Shown here piece after piece: positions 2,743 through 34,585 of a stretch of DNA of 34,585 nucleotides. Within the stretch, counting starts at the first letter, position 1; every line of letters begins with the position of its first letter. The notes beneath the pieces were generated by a model that was not told where the DNA came from, did no database searches, and saw only the letters and a program-made list of their open reading frames with translations. Origin of the DNA: Betaproteobacteria bacterium (GTDB lineage Bacteria > Pseudomonadota > Gammaproteobacteria > Burkholderiales > SG8-41); NCBI GenBank assembly GCA_947486575.1, contig CANKUB010000042.1, positions 1-34,585 of the forward strand, in the 5' to 3' direction. The position numbers and the translations under genes are program-made.

Positions 2743-3702
2743 CTATTCGATACGTATCCCCGCTGCCGCAATCACCTGCTTCCACTTGCCGGTTTCTTTG
2801 GCTATGAAGCGCTCGAATTCCTCGGGTGTGCCAGGCGCGATATTGTTACCTTGCGCTTCGATGGTGGTGCGCACGTCGGCGTTGTTGAGTAGGCGTACGA
2901 TATCGGTATTGAGTCTGCGCACGATTTCCGTCGGCGTGCCCGCGCGCACCGATATGCCTTGCCATGATTGCGATTCGATGTTGTAGCCGGCTTCGATCGC
3001 TGTCGGCACGCCGGGCAGTTCTTTGGTGCGCTGTGAAGTGAGCATGGCAACACCGCGAATCCGTCCGGCGCGCACATGCTGGCTGCTGACAATGGTGGTC
3101 ATCACGGCGGTGCTGATCTGGCCCGCGAACAGGTCCACCAGCGCGGGTGCGTCGCCTTTGTACGGCACATGGATCATGCGGATGCCGGTGACACGCGAGA
3201 GATATTCTGCCGTGAGGTGTATGCCCGTGGCGTAGCCGGGCGTGCCGTAGCTGATCTGCCCGGCCTTGCCGCGCGCCAGTTTGACGAACTCGGCGAGGTT
3301 ACGCACAGGCAGCGACGGATGCGCCACGAGCAGGTACGGCACGGTGGAGATCAGGGTAATCGCCGCATAATCGCGCAGCGGGTCGTAGCGTGGCGTGGCT
3401 TGTGTTAGGGGAATGATGGCGAGTGTGCTGATGGTGCCGAGACCCAGCGTGTAGCCATCGGCGGGTGCTTTCAGCACTGATTCAAAACCGATAAGGCCGC
3501 CCGCGCCGGGGCGATTTTCAACAATAACAGTTTGGCTCCAGGATTCGGTGAGTTTTTGCGCGAGGATGCGCGCGATAGTATCGGTGCCGCCGCCTGGCGC
3601 GAAGGGCACGATCAGGCGCACGGGCCTGGCGGGGTACTGCGCCAATGCAGGGAGAGATAAGGTAATGGCAGTCAGCGCGCCGATCAACAGTTGCCGGTTC
3701 AA
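2743..3702 (-). CDS. Bug/TctC-family substrate-binding protein
   Basis: A 319-residue exported binding protein. The signal peptide (MNRQLLIGALTAITLSLPALA) is cut just before QYPARPVRLIVPFAPGGGTD, the family N-terminal signature. Further family blocks are VENRPGAGG, the MIHVPYKGDAPAL motif and PEEFERFIAKETGKWK near the C-terminus. It overlaps the upstream VOC-fold gene by 4 bp (3699-3702, ATGA), so the two are translated as an operon and probably act on related small organic acids: the binding protein would capture the acid and the VOC protein could process it. That link is inference; no permease genes are nearby. Confidence 0.93.
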   Translation of the reverse strand: MNRQLLIGALTAITLSLPALAQYPARPVRLIVPFAPGGGTDTIARILAQKLTESWSQTVIVENRPGAGGLIGFESVLKAPADGYTLGLGTISTLAIIPLTQATPRYDPLRDYAAITLISTVPYLLVAHPSLPVRNLAEFVKLARGKAGQISYGTPGYATGIHLTAEYLSRVTGIRMIHVPYKGDAPALVDLFAGQISTAVMTTIVSSQHVRAGRIRGVAMLTSQRTKELPGVPTAIEAGYNIESQSWQGISVRAGTPTEIVRRLNTDIVRLLNNADVRTTIEAQGNNIAPGTPEEFERFIAKETGKWKQVIAAAGIRIE

Positions 3703-26734: not shown

Positions 26735-27148
26735 CTAGGCGCTCCAGGGGTTGATCACGTCCAGCTCAAATGCGGCGAAATCCTTTACGTTGCGGGTAAC
26801 AACAGTTAGACCGTGATGCGCCGCAGTCGCAGCAAGCAAACTGTCGATAGCAGGCACGGGTCGGCCCACTGCGAACACGATACGCCCCCAGCGATCTGCT
26901 ACCGGTGCGTCAACGGGCAGAATTCGTCCGGTAAAGAAGTCCGGTAGATCGGCCTCCAGCCAGTCAATCAGTGCCGTGCGGAGATTGGCATCGGATGCGC
27001 CCTCAATGCCCTTGCGCAATTCACCCAAGGTCAATACGCTAATGAAAAGTGTCGATGCCGGCCGTTGTGAAAACCATTCAACGACGCCGACATTGGGCAA
27101 TTTGCGGCGCAACTCTGAGAGCACGTTGGTGTGGACTAGGTAGCTCAA
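26735..27148 (-). CDS. VapC-like PIN-domain toxin with the first catalytic Asp replaced by His
   Basis: A 137-residue PIN nuclease beginning MSYLVHTNVLSELRRKLPNV. In the family this block reads YLLDTNVLSELRR with Asp as the first metal ligand; here codon 6 is CAC (27131-27133), giving His. The other acidic residues are in place: Glu in TLGELRKG, Asp in PAIDSLLAATA and Asp in VTRNVKDFAAF, and the closing NPW is normal. The start is TTG in a TTGA overlap with the antitoxin stop. VapC toxins cut RNA with Mg bound by these acids, so activity is probably reduced or lost. The length is normal and the frame otherwise intact. Confidence 0.88.
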   Translation of the reverse strand: MSYLVHTNVLSELRRKLPNVGVVEWFSQRPASTLFISVLTLGELRKGIEGASDANLRTALIDWLEADLPDFFTGRILPVDAPVADRWGRIVFAVGRPVPAIDSLLAATAAHHGLTVVTRNVKDFAAFELDVINPWSA

Positions 27149-27396
27149 AGTTCAATCCCGCGCGTCAAGCTGGCATCACGCTCGAACGAAATTTCGTCCA
27201 TCGCGTAAAGCGGCGACCGGCGCATAAATTCGACAAGCGATTGATCGCTGCCAGACAATCGCTCAAAGGTGCGCCGCGATACGACAACGGCAACCGACTG
27301 CCCATGCAGCGTAATATCTTGCGGGCCTTCACTCTCAGCGCGTTTCACTACCTCGGAAAGGCGCGCCTTAGCCTCTTGCATTTGCCATACGTGCAT
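27145..27396 (-). CDS. Phd/YefM-family antitoxin of the second pair
   Basis: An 83-residue protein. The N-terminus MHVWQMQEAKARLSEVVKRA and the strand ITLHGQSVAVVVSRRTFERL are the Phd/YefM fold; the C-terminal 30 residues (FMRRSPLYAM and on) form the toxin-binding part. GGAG lies about six bases before the ATG. It overlaps the VapC gene by 4 bp, and a palindrome lies 18 bp upstream of its start. Known relatives neutralise the toxin and repress the operon. Confidence 0.9.
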   Translation of the reverse strand: MHVWQMQEAKARLSEVVKRAESEGPQDITLHGQSVAVVVSRRTFERLSGSDQSLVEFMRRSPLYAMDEISFERDASLTRGIEL

Positions 27397-29180: not shown

Positions 29181-29249
29181 TGATTTAAAGCGATCTACCC
29201 CATGCACGAGGACCGCCACGCCTCGTCTTCCGTCATGATGCGCATGCCG
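29167..29249. repeat. Imperfect direct repeat, copy 1
   Basis: The 83-bp copy is about 85 percent identical by eye to 29344-29428. On the minus strand it encodes MRIMTEDEAWRSSCMG and a TAG stop; the second copy encodes MRIMSEEEARQSSCAG and the same TAG. The preserved frame and stop suggest that both derive from the 3' end of a gene. Confidence 0.75.
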
Positions 29250-29343: not shown

Positions 29344-29428
29344 CGCTGCGGGCGTAGTGATTTCTGAAGCGATCTACCCCGCGCACGATGACTGCCGCGC
29401 CTCTTCTTCCGACATGATGCGCATGCCG
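29344..29428. repeat. Imperfect direct repeat, copy 2
   Basis: The 85-bp partner of the copy at 29167-29249, 177 bp further on, with a two-base insertion and scattered substitutions. On the minus strand its reading frame is continuous with more upstream coding-like sequence, whereas copy 1 has only the tail. Confidence 0.75.
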
Positions 29429-29705
29429 TGGCAGCGTTTCATCAAGGTGCCTACGCAATGGCAAGCTGGCCGATACAGCAGCCACAACACTGACTGTAGT
29501 TTGAGCCAGCCGTACTGTCGGACGCCATTCCGGTGAGCAACGACGCCAAAGGTAAGTTTGTAATTTTTCTGCACATGCCCAACCCAAAACTGGGCGTGTC
29601 GGCAGCATTGCCGGTTATCGACTATTTCGACTATTTCTCTCGTGCATTGCCTCAATCTGATGCTTAGGCTACATTCCGCAGCTGAAGTTTTAACAGGAGC
29701 ATGCA

Positions 29706-30245
29706 ATGAGTGCAATGGTAAGACTGGTCAGTCCAGAAGCGCCACCCCCGGTCGTCGCCGCCACCGGTAAGCAGCGTGATTTGAAGATCGATGGCATACG
29801 TCTCGGCGTATTGGATAACAGCAAAGGCAATGCCGACCATTTGCTGAAATTCATTATTGAAGGCGTGAAAGCGCAGATGAAAGTGGCGTCAGTCGTCTCG
29901 CTGCGCAAGCCGTCACCGTCCGTGCCTGCTGAAAAAAATGTGCTCGATGAACTGACGGAGAAGGCCGATTGCGTAATCAGCGCAATGGCGGATTGAGGCT
30001 CCTGCACGTCGTGGAGTGTCCACGACATGACAGAGTTGCGTAAGCGCGGTCTGGTGACTGCGGTGATCTGTACCGATCCTTTTCTGAAACTGGGCAAGGC
30101 GCAGTCGCGTGTGTTCGGTGTGGCGGATTTGCCGCTGATTGTGATTCCGCACCCGCTGGGCGGCATTTCGCTGGAGAAAGTGGAAGGGCGCGCTGAAGTG
30201 GCAATTCCCGAATTTGTGAAGCTGATCAAGGAGCACAGCAAGTGA
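29706..30245 (+). CDS. UGSC-family selenoprotein (in-frame TGA read as selenocysteine)
   Basis: ATG 29706 has AGGAG six bases upstream. The frame gives 96 residues ending VISAMAD, then TGA at 29994-29996, then continues in the same frame GSCTSWSVHDMTELRKRGLV to TGA at 30243-30245, 179 residues in all. Both halves fit one alpha/beta protein: LKIDGIRLGVLDNSKGNADH is a typical first strand-loop-helix, and after the motif comes VTAVICTDPF and a C-terminal EFVKLIKEH helix. The motif U97-G-S-C100 defines a known family of Sec or Cys proteins with a redox-like U-x-x-C pair. A hairpin with SECIS geometry follows the TGA. Naive gene calling would split it at 29996. The catalytic role is unknown. It overlaps the next gene by 4 bp. 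Confidence 0.88.
29994..30029 (+). promoter_or_regulatory. Bacterial SECIS element candidate with its UGA
   Basis: The UGA is at 29994-29996. A perfect 8-bp stem GTCGTGGA/TCCACGAC (30008-30015 and 30019-30026) closes on a GTG loop, and two further pairs extend it at 30005-30006 with 30028-30029. The loop begins 19 bases after the UGA and has G first. Published rules for bacterial SECIS elements ask for a loop within about 16-37 bases of the UGA and a G in the first two loop positions; this hairpin meets both. Confidence 0.8.
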
Positions 30246-31390
30246 GCGATCTGTCGGATTTATTGAAAGCGCCTGAAGCGAGTCTTGAGGCGAAGGATGA
30301 TTTTTTTGCGATCAACGAGTTGTACATGGAAAAAGGCTGGGGCGATGGCCTTCCACTGATTCCGCCCACTGAAGCGCGCGTGGCCGCGATGCTTGAATAT
30401 TGCGACCGGCCGTGGAACGAGCCCGTGGGCAAAGTAGCGCCGCGTTATGGCGAAGCAACCCCGTTGCGGCTAGCGGCGAACGCAGTGATGGCTGGTTGCA
30501 AGCCAGAATATTTTCCCATCATCGTTCTCGCGGTTGAAGCGATGTGCGATGAGGCATTCAACCTGTACGGCATTCAGGCAACAACGCACATGTGTGCGCC
30601 GCTGGTGATCGTCAATGGCCCCGGTGCCAAAGAAATCGGCATGAACAGCGGCCACAATGCGTTTGGCCCCGGCACCCACAGCAATGCCACGATTGGCCGC
30701 GCTATCCGTTTGATTTTATTGAATATTGGCGGTGCGATTCCAGGGCTGGGCGATATGTCCACGTTTGGCGGGCCGAACAAATATTCGTATTGCGTGGCTG
30801 AAAATGAAGCAGGTAATCCGTGGGAGCCACTTCACGTGGAGCGCGGCTTTCCCAAAGAGGCGACGTGCGTCACCGTGGTGGGTGGCGAGTGCCCGCACAA
30901 CGTCAACGATCACGAAAGCATTTCCGGTTTGGGCATTTTGAAAACGATAGCCGGTACGCTGATTTCAACCGGAATGAACGATGTGTATTACCCGGACGCG
31001 CAACCGCTGATTGTGCTGGGCCCGGAGCACGCGGCGACCATTGCCAATGACGGCATCAGCAAAAAGGACGTGAAGAAATTCATCACCGAGCATGCCAAAA
31101 TTCCGCTGGGCACCTTCTCCCAAGAGAATATCGAGCGGCGTTTCAGGGTGGCGTTTGCGTCTGCCTTCAAAACAGCCGGGTTGGATGCGCCGGTGCCAAT
31201 GATTCATAACGCCGATCAGTTGCTGATTGCAGTGGTGGGCGGCGCTGGCAAGCATTCGGCAATTATCCCGACCTTCGGCGCAACCAAGGCGGTAACGCGC
31301 GCGCTGAAGCGAAAGGATGGGCAGTATGCGCGTAACATGCAGGAGATGCGCCGGGGATGGGATAGTATTGTAAGCATTTGTTTCAATTGA
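30242..31390 (+). CDS. Partner protein of the UGSC selenoprotein, function unknown
   Basis: A 382-residue protein with a GTG start overlapping the selenoprotein stop (GTGA), so the two are coupled. No signal peptide or membrane segment is seen. Notable blocks are MEKGWGDGLPLIPPTEARVA near the N-terminus, LRLAANAVMAGCKPEYFPII with a central Cys, MCAPLVIVNGPGAKEIGMNS, FGPGTHSNATIGRAIRLIL, and GGECPHNVNDHES with a second likely functional Cys. The Gly-rich NGPGA and GPGTHSNATIG loops look like ligand-binding sites. From memory, this domain accompanies or is fused to UGSC proteins in other bacteria. The two Cys could exchange with the U-x-x-C pair of its partner (inference). I cannot assign a reaction. 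Confidence 0.85.
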   Translation: MSDLSDLLKAPEASLEAKDDFFAINELYMEKGWGDGLPLIPPTEARVAAMLEYCDRPWNEPVGKVAPRYGEATPLRLAANAVMAGCKPEYFPIIVLAVEAMCDEAFNLYGIQATTHMCAPLVIVNGPGAKEIGMNSGHNAFGPGTHSNATIGRAIRLILLNIGGAIPGLGDMSTFGGPNKYSYCVAENEAGNPWEPLHVERGFPKEATCVTVVGGECPHNVNDHESISGLGILKTIAGTLISTGMNDVYYPDAQPLIVLGPEHAATIANDGISKKDVKKFITEHAKIPLGTFSQENIERRFRVAFASAFKTAGLDAPVPMIHNADQLLIAVVGGAGKHSAIIPTFGATKAVTRALKRKDGQYARNMQEMRRGWDSIVSICFN

Positions 31391-31818: not shown

Positions 31819-32709
31819 TTGCACATTCCGCTCGACGACGGCAAAACCGAAAGCCCGGTCAAGATTTTATTGATCTGCGCCGCAGCGGCGCTGGTGCCGT
31901 GGGTGTGGGACGTGTGGGCGAGGCCCCTGTGGGTGGTGGCAGTGTCGCTGGTGCTGTCGGCGATTTCGGTATTTCTGATTTACTGGCAAATTAAAAGCCT
32001 GACCAATAATTTGCGCGCGCGGGATGCCATCGTGCAGGGTGTCGAGCAACGGCAGGCCAGCGGCGCGTCAGATTCCGCATCGATGCTGCGGGCTATGTTG
32101 GGCCAATGGCTGGGTTCGTCGCACGCGGCAACCAGCAACTTGCAGCAGGCGCGCGCCATGCTTGATGAGGTGACCGAACAATCCGAATCAGCAGCGGCCA
32201 GAATCGGCAGAAGTTTTCGCGTGGTGATGAACAAAACCGGTCAGCAGATGGACGACGCGGTGCGTCTGTTAAAAAGCAATTCAGACGGCGCGGGTGGCTC
32301 GACGTGGCTATCGCTGCCAGACTTTATCAAGGCCTACGAAAACCAGCTGGATACCGTTACCGGGCGCATGATGGATTTCTCCAAGGCGTCGGAAGAAATG
32401 TCGCGTTACGAAGAAGTGGTGCGCGAACATTCGCTCGCCATCGATGAAATGCTCGATGAATTACGCAATATGGCGGCACGCATTCGCAAGCTGGCGCTGG
32501 ATTCAACGGTTGCGGCGAATCGCGGCGATTCGACCACCGACACGCGCTGGTTTATTGAAATCGCTGACCGCATACGCGAGACCAGCACGTCCGCGCACGA
32601 ACTCACACGGCGCATGCGCGACGGCCTGGAGCAGATCCGCGAGGTGATGAGCAAAACCTATGAAGAACTAAGTGTCCGCGCAAAAATAACTTCCCAGTTC
32701 TTAGCCTAA
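31819..32709 (+). CDS. MCP-like membrane signalling protein, 3' end interrupted by an insertion sequence
   Basis: TTG start with GGGGAG six bases upstream. The frame gives 296 residues, but the last 12 (from about VRAKITSQFLA) come from the left end of the insertion sequence at 32673. Two membrane helices lie at about residues 15-33 and 37-55, with almost no periplasmic loop. The cytoplasmic part is a long helical coil; near residues 220-260 RIRKLALDSTVAANRGDSTT followed by FIEIADRIRETSTSAHELTR echoes the tip of chemotaxis receptors (LALNAAIEAARAGE pattern). The native C-terminus should resume beyond the window. The product is probably truncated. Confidence 0.8.
   Translation: MHIPLDDGKTESPVKILLICAAAALVPWVWDVWARPLWVVAVSLVLSAISVFLIYWQIKSLTNNLRARDAIVQGVEQRQASGASDSASMLRAMLGQWLGSSHAATSNLQQARAMLDEVTEQSESAAARIGRSFRVVMNKTGQQMDDAVRLLKSNSDGAGGSTWLSLPDFIKAYENQLDTVTGRMMDFSKASEEMSRYEEVVREHSLAIDEMLDELRNMAARIRKLALDSTVAANRGDSTTDTRWFIEIADRIRETSTSAHELTRRMRDGLEQIREVMSKTYEELSVRAKITSQFLA
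32668..32672. repeat. Target-site duplication, left copy
   Basis: CTAAG directly before the left inverted repeat; an identical CTAAG follows the right inverted repeat at 34581-34585, the last five bases of the window. Because the outermost bases can belong either to the element or to the duplication, a 3-bp TAA duplication with a slightly longer element is also possible. Confidence 0.65.
32673..32693 (+). repeat. Left terminal inverted repeat of the insertion sequence
   Basis: It starts TGTCCGCGCAAAAATAAC; the right end reads TATCCGCGCAAAAATAAT on the opposite strand. Only two mismatches occur in 21 positions. Confidence 0.9.
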
Positions 32710-32814
32710 TTCAGACAGATAAAGCCTGACCGCAGAAGGCGCGGATTAATCTGAGATACCGATTTCCGCTGGTGTTGGCGCGCCTTGCGGAAGGTTGACG
32801 ATGTGTTGTGTAAA

Positions 32815-32850
32815 TGTCACAATTCTTCCGCATAAGGAGGAATTCTGACA
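32815..32850 (+). promoter_or_regulatory. Hairpin masking the ribosome binding site of the transposase
   Basis: Arms 32815-32829 and 32836-32850 pair at 13 of 15 positions around the six-base loop GCATAA. The right arm contains the Shine-Dalgarno AAGGAGG (32834-32840) of the ATG at 32853. A TTGACG box at 32795-32800 and CACAAT at 32818-32823 with 17 bp between could form a promoter starting near 32830, which would leave out the left arm. Confidence 0.6.
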
Positions 32851-32852
32851 TT

Positions 32853-33638
32853 ATGCGCACACCTCAGTTCGACTCTGACACGCTGCTCCCCCTGTTCCGC
32901 CGCCGCCAAGTTGTGACCATGGACCAGATGAAGGCCGCATTGGGCACTACAGTTGACCGCACCGTGTTTCGTAAATTGCGGGAATTTCCATACCACTCCA
33001 GCTATTCGCACCGCGGCAGGTTCTACACGCTCGATGCCTTGGCCGACTTCGATGACCGGGGCCTTTGGAGCTGCGACGGCGCTTTCTTTTCGCGATTCGG
33101 CACGCTCATGGATACGGCAGAACAGTTCGTCACGCGCTCGGATCGCGGATTTTTGGCCTCGGAGCTGACCGGTGAACTGCAGGTCCCAGTCAAGGAGCCC
33201 CTGCTCAAGCTGGTGAGCGCGCAGCGCCTCGTGCGAAAGCAGGTCGCTGGCCAATACGTCTATTGCGCGACCGACGCCGCAAAGCGCACTCAGCAACTGC
33301 AACAGCGCCATATGCCCATGACTGCAGAAACGTTGCCCTTCCTACGTGATCCCTTGGCGCAGAGCTCGGACGAGACCAAGGCGGCCATCATCCTGTTCTT
33401 CAGCACGCTCAATGAGCGGCAACGCCGGCTCTACGCCGGACTCGAGTCTTTGCGCCTGGGACATGGCGGTGACAGCCACATCGCCGCACTCACCGGGCTG
33501 GATGTCCACACCATCGCCAAGGGTAGATCCGAATTGCTTGCGCACGATGTACGCCTTGAGCGCATTCGGCGCCCTGGCGCAGGCCGTCCGCGGCTGGAAA
33601 AAAAACACCGCAAGTCATCGACGCGATCCAAAAGCTAA
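32853..33638 (+). CDS. Transposase ORF A: DNA-binding part of the ISAzo13-type transposase
   Basis: ATG 32853 has AAGGAGG twelve bases upstream; an in-frame ATG at 32814 adds 13 residues. The 261-residue product carries an N-terminal winged-helix-like region (TLLPLFRRRQVVTMDQMKAA and a later EPLLKLVSAQRLVRKQVAGQ wing) and, from about residue 175, the usual N-terminal part of ISAzo13 transposases: LNERQRRLYAGLESLRLGHG, a helix-turn-helix ALTGLDVHTIAKGRSELL, and the basic RIRRPGAGRPRLEKK. The frame then slips at A8 (33598-33605) into ORF B; without slipping it ends 11 codons later. The extra N-terminal region of some 170 residues is longer than I expect for the family. Confidence 0.85.
   Translation: MRTPQFDSDTLLPLFRRRQVVTMDQMKAALGTTVDRTVFRKLREFPYHSSYSHRGRFYTLDALADFDDRGLWSCDGAFFSRFGTLMDTAEQFVTRSDRGFLASELTGELQVPVKEPLLKLVSAQRLVRKQVAGQYVYCATDAAKRTQQLQQRHMPMTAETLPFLRDPLAQSSDETKAAIILFFSTLNERQRRLYAGLESLRLGHGGDSHIAALTGLDVHTIAKGRSELLAHDVRLERIRRPGAGRPRLEKKHRKSSTRSKS
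33598..33605 (+). other. -1 ribosomal frameshift signal (A8) in the insertion sequence
   Basis: Frame 0 reads GAA AAA AAA CAC; slipping back one base at the A run gives ACA CCG CAA and on into ORF B through TPQVIDAIQKLMEHHTAGDP, which restores the conserved family sequence across the joint. The fused protein would be about 569 residues from ATG 32853. Confidence 0.8.
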
Positions 33639-34561
33639 TGGAGCACCACACTGCGGGCGACCCAATCAACGGCCTGAAGTGGACACGCAAGACGACTCTG
33701 AAGATCAGTGGTGAATTGCGTAAGGCCGGCATTGTGGTGTCGCCCAAGACCGTCGCACGCTTGCTCAGGGGCTTGAAATTCTCCCTGCGCGTCAATCACA
33801 AGAAGGTCGCGGGCACATCCAGTCCCTTTCGAAATCAGCAGTTCGAATACATCAACCGCATGCGCCGGCGTTTCCAACGCCAAGGCTCCCCGGCCATCAG
33901 CATCGACACCAAGAAGCGGGAGTTGGTCGGACGCTTCAAGAACGCGGGCACGAGCTGGGAGAGCACCCCAGTGCTGGTCAATGACCACGATTTCAGAACC
34001 CTTGCGCAGGGCGTCGCAATCCCGTGGGGACTCTACGACACCCAGGCCAATCGCGGGCATGTCTACATTGGCACCTCTCACGACACGCCCGCATTCTCGG
34101 TCACGGCCCTTGCACAATGGTGGAGCCGTTCAGGCCGCAGATGCTACCCCCACACCAAGCGTCTGCTCATCCTCGCCGACGCTGGTGGCAGCAATGGGGC
34201 CCGCACGCGGGCCTGGAAGTATGAGCTACAGACCCGCGTCTGCGATCGCTTCGGACTTACGCTTACCGTCTGCCATTACCCCCCGGGCACCTCCAAGTGG
34301 AATCCCATCGAGCATCGCCTCTTCAGCGAGATCAGCAAGAACTGGGCTGGCCAACCTCTCGAGAATTACGAAACCGTGCTCAACTTTATTCGCACCACGA
34401 AAACCTTGACCGGTCTCCTCGTCAATGCCACCCTGCTAGACGGTGACTATCCGACTGGCATTAAAATATCCGATGCCCAAATGCACGAAGTGAACTTACG
34501 ACCGCATCGGGTTCTGCCTATGTGGAACTACACTCTCGTTCCCGCCCGCTCAAAAATGTGA
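33638..34561 (+). CDS. Transposase ORF B: catalytic DDE domain, ISAzo13 family
   Basis: A 307-residue frame from ATG 33638, which overlaps the ORF A stop as TAATG; most catalytic product is expected from the -1 fusion at 33598-33605. Family blocks are LKWTRKTTLKISGELRKAGI, VSPKTVARLLRGLKFSL and FEYINRMRRRFQ. The catalytic triad is Asp90 (AISIDTKKREL), Asp181 (LILADAGGSNG) and Glu225 (WNPIEHRLFSEI), and the CHYPPGTSKWN signature is that of the Rhodopirellula transposase DDE family. No internal stop is present. Confidence 0.92.
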   Translation: MEHHTAGDPINGLKWTRKTTLKISGELRKAGIVVSPKTVARLLRGLKFSLRVNHKKVAGTSSPFRNQQFEYINRMRRRFQRQGSPAISIDTKKRELVGRFKNAGTSWESTPVLVNDHDFRTLAQGVAIPWGLYDTQANRGHVYIGTSHDTPAFSVTALAQWWSRSGRRCYPHTKRLLILADAGGSNGARTRAWKYELQTRVCDRFGLTLTVCHYPPGTSKWNPIEHRLFSEISKNWAGQPLENYETVLNFIRTTKTLTGLLVNATLLDGDYPTGIKISDAQMHEVNLRPHRVLPMWNYTLVPARSKM

Positions 34562-34580
34562 AATTATTTTTGCGCGGATA
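34560..34580 (-). repeat. Right terminal inverted repeat of the insertion sequence
   Basis: On the minus strand it reads TATCCGCGCAAAAATAAT and pairs with the left end at 32673-32693. The ORF B stop codon (34559-34561) overlaps its inner edge. The flanking CTAAG ends the window. Confidence 0.9.
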
Positions 34581-34585
34581 CTAAG

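Follow-up and report, generated by a model that had tools for sequence, protein, structure and literature searches.

A very probable UGSC selenoprotein and its near-constant partner gene in a betaproteobacterial genome

Introduction

Selenoproteins of the UGSC family have been recorded in surveys of both genomes and metagenomes. In a 2016 survey, which covered over 5200 bacteria, Table 3 gives 33 UGSC selenoproteins in 26 organisms, and the same source, as far as its text was available, calls a selenoproteome with six or more selenoproteins rich (PMC5029168). The largest selenoproteomes named in the accessible part of a 2026 review hold 57 and 63 selenoproteins (PMC13188914). UGSC makes up 8.2% of selenoprotein genes and is among the most abundant in aquatic metagenomes, according to the available portion of another report (PMC9402790). 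In the excerpted text of the 2008 GOS paper, which deals with marine metagenome data, UGSC is described as fused to a conserved domain, 'Unknown_1', and is guessed to have a thioredoxin-like fold (PMC2398784).

In this study, we analysed a stretch of 34,585 nucleotides (the window) that constitutes contig CANKUB010000042.1 of assembly GCA_947486575.1, from a Betaproteobacteria bacterium. A preliminary description had read two apparent open reading frames of this window as one UGSC selenoprotein with selenocysteine (Sec) at codon 97, and the profile matches to PF24696 and NF041046, the orthologues and the Sec genes of the genome all agree with that reading. The features of the locus are collected in Table 1.

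Table 1. Features of the UGSC-partner locus, in window positions
Feature	Position	Strand	Basis or remark
Ribosome-binding site AGGAG of the UGSC gene	29695..29699	+	6 nt before the ATG; sequence
UGSC selenoprotein gene (predicted)	29706..30245	+	179 residues with Sec97; stop TGA 30243-30245
UGA codon of predicted Sec97 (U in U-G-S-C)	29994..29996	+	profile matches and orthologues
Cys100 codon, likely resolving cysteine (U-x-x-C)	30003..30005	+	invariant in 39/39 rows of the UGSC alignment
Bacterial SECIS-like hairpin, 8 bp, GUG loop (GUCGUGGA-GUG-UCCACGAC)	30008..30026	+	folding and covariation
GTGA overlap, partner start within UGSC stop	30242..30245	+	sequence
Partner gene, 382 residues	30242..31390	+	adjacent or fused in relatives; profile and PDB sequence searches
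Codon of the partner's invariant Cys86 (A-G-C motif)	30497..30499	+	40/40 partner alignment rows

Results

One UGSC domain on both sides of an in-frame TGA

The gene encodes 96 residues, an in-frame TGA as codon 97, and a further 82 residues before its TGA stop. Joined across codon 97, the 179-residue protein matches PF24696 with an E-value of 1e-41 and 143.4 bits (cut-off 25) from residue 17 to 174 and from profile position 12 to 170 of 172, which is nearly the full UGSC domain, and it scores 126.9 bits against NF041046 (cut-off 125); the gene thus belongs to this known family. The claim that protein-like halves flank the TGA in the same frame was borne out, as each half alone matches PF24696, the upstream one at profile positions 10-92 (E 6.8e-13) and the downstream one at 95-170 (E 5.4e-19). 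Since the two halves match one model in register, they are both parts of one contiguous domain, and the limits of the two matches indicate that nothing notable has been lost or duplicated around the TGA. Homologues that align across the TGA with Cys at position 97, a check proposed at the outset, make up all 38 other rows of the UGSC alignment, which come from a scan of named genomes whose pattern demanded Cys, so that they are Cys forms only. C97, G98 and C100 are invariant in all 39 rows, with U97 of the window protein written as C.

Of 14 genomes of the same genus, the own genome included, 13 contain a UGSC gene that matches closely (E of 1e-50 or lower), and nine matches in the other genomes of the genus have 85-95% identity and one TGA apiece. 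None of these nine orthologues has a stop other than the TGA at codon 97, and in each the partner gene follows directly. Between the window gene and the nine orthologues, dN/dS over codons 98-179 is 0 to 0.082, which argues that the half after the TGA is selected as protein. Codons 98-108, between the TGA and an ATG at 30027, encode identical residues in all nine, so that a translation start at 30027 cannot account for them. Silent changes are also scarce in these codons, which cover the hairpin: the nine comparisons give 7 synonymous changes in total (0.07 per codon), against 243 (0.38 per codon) in codons 109-179, the nine orthologues being mutually related and the counts therefore not independent.

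Bacterial SECIS elements are hairpins that lie shortly after the UGA. In the window, the loop of such a hairpin begins 20 nt past the UGA, and the segment 29994-30040 has a folding energy of -20 kcal/mol (z -2.53), which 4 of 200 shuffled sequences equalled. Over 31 of 38 sequences (26 distinct), 96.2% of the hairpin cells are paired and the covariation score is 0.251, neither of which was matched by any of 500 shuffles, and slid versions of the hairpin reach at most 0.094. The count left out the truncated copy C24, L112:10310, and the own genes C3a, C81, C47a, C47b and C153, which have the hairpin in another register. Two pairs are changed on both sides, a number reached by 318 of 500 shuffles; as this is not above the shuffles, the covariation depends on few positions. 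L151 and L152 carry one more change on both sides of a pair, with A for G15 and U for C33.

The Sec genes, which the preliminary description proposed to look for in the same genome, were all found. Neither of the outcomes named there as refuting the Sec reading, a lack of homologues aligned across the TGA or of selB and selC in the genome, was thus observed. The genes selA (579 bits) and selB (455 bits) and the tRNA-Sec (selC; 77.7 bits) are on one contig, where they sit, together with a thioredoxin reductase (TrxR)-like gene that follows selB, between two fused UGSC-partner genes. The selD gene (G000:C248:2697-3623) has one in-frame TGA, and SelD itself is therefore probably a selenoprotein. 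Contig C244 (L161) carries two adjacent TGA genes: a PrdB-like selenoprotein with U-P-N-C, which exceeds the cut-off of PF07355 and matches TIGR04483 at 2e-28, below that model's cut-off, and an OsmC-related selenoprotein with 171.5 bits against NF041052, above cut-off.

On these grounds, UGA97 is almost certainly decoded as selenocysteine, and SelB together with the hairpin would recode it to yield one 179-residue UGSC protein. The statement that the ATG at 30027 has no ribosome site of its own was not quite accurate, as a GGAG (30013-30016) lies 10 nt upstream, within the hairpin. This would suit an ordinary stop at UGA97 with a restart at 30027, hence two genes, or a decaying frame, a reading that is nonetheless extremely improbable in view of the purifying selection on codons 98-179 with no replacement in 98-108 in nine orthologues, the conserved hairpin, the Sec machinery, and the single in-frame TGA in 105 of 107 order-level matches above cut-off. 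Suppression that inserts a residue other than Sec (Trp or Cys) has an equally negligible chance, given the complete Sec machinery, the SECIS-like hairpin right after the UGA, the homologues with Cys at the site, and the TGA codons in the SelD, PrdB-like and OsmC-like selenoprotein genes of the same genome.

Elsewhere in the window, two 62-nt direct repeats (29188-29249 and 29367-29428, 89% alike) lie upstream of the UGSC gene, and a PIN-domain gene (PF01850) overlaps a small upstream gene on the minus strand (26735-27396) in a toxin-antitoxin-like arrangement. An ISAzo13-type insertion sequence (32668-34585) has 38-nt inverted ends, 82% complementary, and two overlapping frames (32814-33638 and 33638-34561), the second of which matches PF07592 at 3e-114; the contig ends at its right end.

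Expansion of UGSC genes

The genome of the window (5.35 Mb) contains 18 matches to PF24696, 17 of them above cut-off, with exactly one TGA in each of the 17; copy C24 is truncated at the end of its contig. In addition, a marginal match around the motif (G000:C195:259-369, E 5.6e-4, below cut-off) lies in a 554-residue frame with no stop within the match, and similar ones occur in G113 and G157. In the GTDB family, all 60 sampled genomes, the own one included, have PF24696 matches, at least 909 in all, with a median of 11.5 per genome and a range from 1 to 48, counts that include some matches below cut-off and are lower bounds where they are large. Six or more matches were found in 53 of the 60 genomes, and every family match listed has one TGA. 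Within the order, 14 of 120 genomes (three from the same family, the own one included) have matches; a single TGA is present in 105 of the 107 above cut-off, and the other two lack it. Good-quality genomes are also expanded, such as G008 (7.1 Mb in 30 contigs, 100% complete, contamination 3) with 21 matches, so that mixed strains are no general explanation. With 909 matches in the 60 genomes, gene prediction that treats UGA as a stop would leave hundreds of genes of this family divided or truncated.

The scan of named genomes gave 50 Cys-form UGSC loci, among others in Alcaligenaceae, sphingomonads, actinobacteria and haloarchaea. In a tree of 88 UGSC domains (37 Sec and 51 Cys), the own copies fall into several old subfamilies, some of which include relatives from other genera of the same family, and the window protein groups with the own copies C171 and C117 (support 100/100). 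The tree needs nine Sec/Cys changes, at least six of them by well-supported branches; several long branches make its deep joins unsure.

The partner gene

That the UGSC gene has a partner gene was also part of the preliminary description, and the partner proved to be real and general. It neighbours UGSC or is fused to it in all 50 named Cys-form loci, in 16 of the 17 own-genome genes (the exception being C171, whose 9-kb contig lacks a partner), and in 19 of 20 GTDB-family windows that were hand-picked from the match list, mostly on long contigs. One of the 22 UGSC matches in these 20 windows, L111:9724, was without a detectable motif. Seven of the 17 own copies (C29, C21, C3a, C81, C47a, C47b and C153) are single fused UGSC-partner genes, and in the window the overlap of the UGSC stop with the partner start makes it probable that the pair is translationally coupled. 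Partners without an own UGSC gene nearby occur at C40, at C24 (the second on that contig) and at C140 (cut by a contig end). On C24 (365-2410, L049), two tandem partner genes precede the truncated UGSC gene. Near-identical partner pieces at the ends of contigs C140 and C263 are either the two parts of a single broken locus or the result of a recent duplication.

Profile searches with the window partner found no Pfam or NCBIfam family, and its profile had no match among PDB sequences at E-values up to 1. Among 40 partners, a weak match to trimethylamine methyltransferase (MTTB) in seven (best E 0.0063) was the sole Pfam match common to more than two, and NCBIfam gave single matches only, at chance level. 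The partner alignment, from which L074 and L105 were left out because their ranges held a stop, has 14 invariant positions in 40 rows, including D35-G36 and A84-G85-C86; Cys184 is conserved in 37 rows. A structure model of the partner (pLDDT 85.7, pTM 0.88) gave a Foldseek list led by class I fumarate hydratases (E 5.7e-4), with Toblerone-fold cyclic-amide hydrolases further down. Among the 50 matches listed, the TM-score to solved folds is at most 0.29 by query length and at most 0.33 by target length.

Fold and kinship of the UGSC domain

The fused homologue of Streptomyces hyaluromycini was modelled with a pLDDT of 87.9 and a pTM of 0.75. Flavodoxin-like proteins (flavodiiron proteins, azoreductase and WrbA) come first in its Foldseek list, with E-values from 3e-4; the TM-scores do not exceed 0.21 when normalised to the length of the fused query and reach 0.58 when normalised to that of the target. 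No thioredoxin is among the 50 matches listed. The assignment of these matches to the UGSC domain follows from the strand-helix order, as the output names no aligned part. The Sec position (Cys89 in the fused model) is preceded by a strand (81-85) and followed by a helix (90-105). From this model we infer that UGSC is a flavodoxin-like α/β domain. A search of the UGSC profile for a relative in the PDB returned unrelated matches only, the best of them a designed origami protein (E 6.4e-4).

The best models of other families for the window protein are TIGR01917 (E 3.2e-5), TIGR01918 (0.0055) and GrdF (0.07), models of selenoprotein subunits from the glycine, sarcosine, betaine and D-proline reductase group that align at the U-x-x-C site; the scores, 23 bits against a cut-off of 602.2 for TIGR01917 and 15.7 against 65.45 for TIGR01918, are far too low for assignment, and PrdB (TIGR04483) gave no match at E 0.1. 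At E-values up to 0.1, PrdB matches 16 of 39 UGSC members (best E 0.0019) and GrdB 12, and the unrelated CheD model matches 8 of the 39 at the same lax threshold. An hhalign comparison of the UGSC profile with the single PrdB-like sequence of the own genome aligned the Sec positions, with a probability of 2.6%. Kinship between UGSC and GrdB/PrdB, as judged from these profile comparisons, is at best likely, and UGSC is not a member of GrdB/PrdB. The GrdE model PF09338 had zero matches in the own genome in a search that matched in no control either, so that GrdE may nonetheless be present.

Gene neighbourhoods

In 14 hand-chosen loci of the 50 named ones, the gene order was inspected for the arrangement seen in Bordetella. 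The order LysR, partner, UGSC, CaiB-type CoA-transferase, TctC receptor and thioredoxin reductase occurs in L063, L064, L065 and L069, of which three are from Bordetella and one is from Advenella, while L066, L079 and L100 have it without TrxR, and L067 and L073 without CaiB and TrxR. Saccharopolyspora (L084) and Microbacterium (L089) also have a TrxR-family gene next to the UGSC-partner pair, and Candidimonas (L087) has one after CaiB. Altogether, 7 of the 50 named loci (Alcaligenaceae and actinobacteria; three of them Bordetella) have such a gene in the UGSC cluster, and none was found in the 20 GTDB-family windows. Checked against the NCBIfam TrxR model (cut-off 343), for the Bordetella and own-genome genes only, the former scores 385 bits and the latter 230, under the cut-off.

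Receptors of the TctC/Bug type, of which the window carries two genes (881-1864 and 2743-3702), were considered as a clue to the substrate and rejected for the Sec loci. They account for 19 of 243 genes at these loci against 23 of 213 in 20 control windows. TctC genes are near 14 of 18 own UGSC loci, and all 150 scored of 693 TctC/Bug candidates in the own genome match.

Discussion

Together, these results place the UGSC gene in a large set of similar pairs. The presence of many copies of the UGSC-partner pair suggests a set of selenium-based enzymes. Since the partner is beside or fused to UGSC in nearly all loci (50/50 named, 16/17 own and 19/20 in the family), the two may be regarded as a two-subunit unit, and the near-constant partner may be the half of the UGSC enzyme that has been missing so far. 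Likewise, the distribution of the own copies over several old subfamilies argues for diversified paralogues.

Our preferred reading, to which we give an even chance, is that UGSC and its partner are a two-subunit selenol/thiol reductase in which the partner binds the substrate and TrxR supplies electrons. UGSC and the partner would form one enzyme, with Sec97 just before a helix and Cys100 as the resolving thiol. The partner would bind a small organic substrate and present it to the selenol, which would attack or reduce it to give a selenenyl intermediate; Cys100 would then resolve this intermediate to a Se-S bond, and a thioredoxin-reductase system would re-reduce that bond. Electrons would thus pass from NADPH through TrxR and UGSC to the partner-held substrate, a route that is consistent with the TrxR neighbours and with the location of the Sec genes between fused copies. 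The paralogues may differ in substrate. As to the bond that is broken, a first guess by analogy with the glycine, sarcosine and D-proline reductases would be reductive cleavage at an activated carbon. Against the reductase speak the GrdB/PrdB cut-offs, none of which is reached, the CheD matches at the same lax threshold, the hhalign probability of 2.6%, the lack of any GrdE/PrdA match for the partner, whose most frequent weak match is to trimethylamine methyltransferase, the poor fit of all listed solved folds to the partner model, the own copy C171 without a partner, and the presence of TrxR near only 7 of 50 loci and in none of the 20 family windows.

Many selenoproteins are of the peroxidase or oxidoreductase (antioxidant) kind. 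UGSC might accordingly be a general thiol/selenol peroxidase or disulfide oxidoreductase, with the partner as a scaffold or regulator, and the U-x-x-C redox motif, the TrxR neighbours in 7 of 50 loci and the thioredoxin-like fold guessed in the consulted part of the GOS paper (PMC2398784) are consistent with such a role. However, flavodoxin-like proteins rather than thioredoxin lead the matches listed for the fused model. One general peroxide function is hard to square with up to 48 matches per genome and with a partner that is constant, about 330-390 residues long and invariant at 14 positions over 40 rows. We therefore consider an antioxidant role rather unlikely. Still less likely is that the partner is a lyase or hydratase akin to class I fumarate hydratase that UGSC protects or supplies with a metal or cluster. 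Fumarate hydratases do top the Foldseek list of the partner, with the Toblerone-fold hydrolases lower, and Cys86 and Cys184 are conserved; however, a TM-score of 0.33 or less and an rmsd of about 16-20 Å in the fumarate hydratase rows amount to no fold match. Moreover, a cluster of the fumarate-hydratase type is usually bound by three Cys, more than the two that are conserved here.

Returning to the two-subunit reductase, we put forward a broader picture only tentatively, and hold it to be somewhat doubtful as a whole. In it, much of the selenoproteome of one bacterial family would be a single two-subunit selenoenzyme whose copies are substrate-specific reductases, with cleavage of the glycine/proline-reductase type, a different partner subunit, electrons from TrxR, and Cys versions in actinobacteria, Alcaligenaceae, sphingomonads and haloarchaea. 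The groups with Cys-form UGSC are mostly aerobic, and if the enzyme does cleave C-X bonds reductively in aerobes, this would add a new type of chemistry to catabolism. The expansion and the near-constant partner make an unsolved selenoprotein family testable: the Cys forms in cultured strains allow UGSC or its partner to be knocked out, and the expansion throughout one bacterial family offers natural variation for the discovery of substrates.

The expansion and the constant partner seem to be undescribed so far, as no description of a UGSC expansion was found in the open-licence literature within the portions available. The window protein resembles the published UGSC family (PF24696, NF041046) in its U-G-S-C motif, its scores over both cut-offs and its Sec/Cys site. 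In contrast to the 33 UGSC selenoproteins that Table 3 of the 2016 survey distributes over 26 organisms (PMC5029168), this genome alone has 17, and one relative has 48 matches. The UGSC/Unknown_1 architecture in the available GOS text (PMC2398784) is one fusion, whereas the partner is a near-constant companion here; 'Unknown_1' is perhaps the partner family. The GrdB/PrdB proteins of the glycine, sarcosine, betaine and D-proline reductases likewise carry Sec in a U-x-x-C motif that aligns with the UGSC site, but the window protein is far under their curated cut-offs, and in contrast to the GrdE/PrdA subunits that accompany them, the UGSC partner matches no model of that kind.
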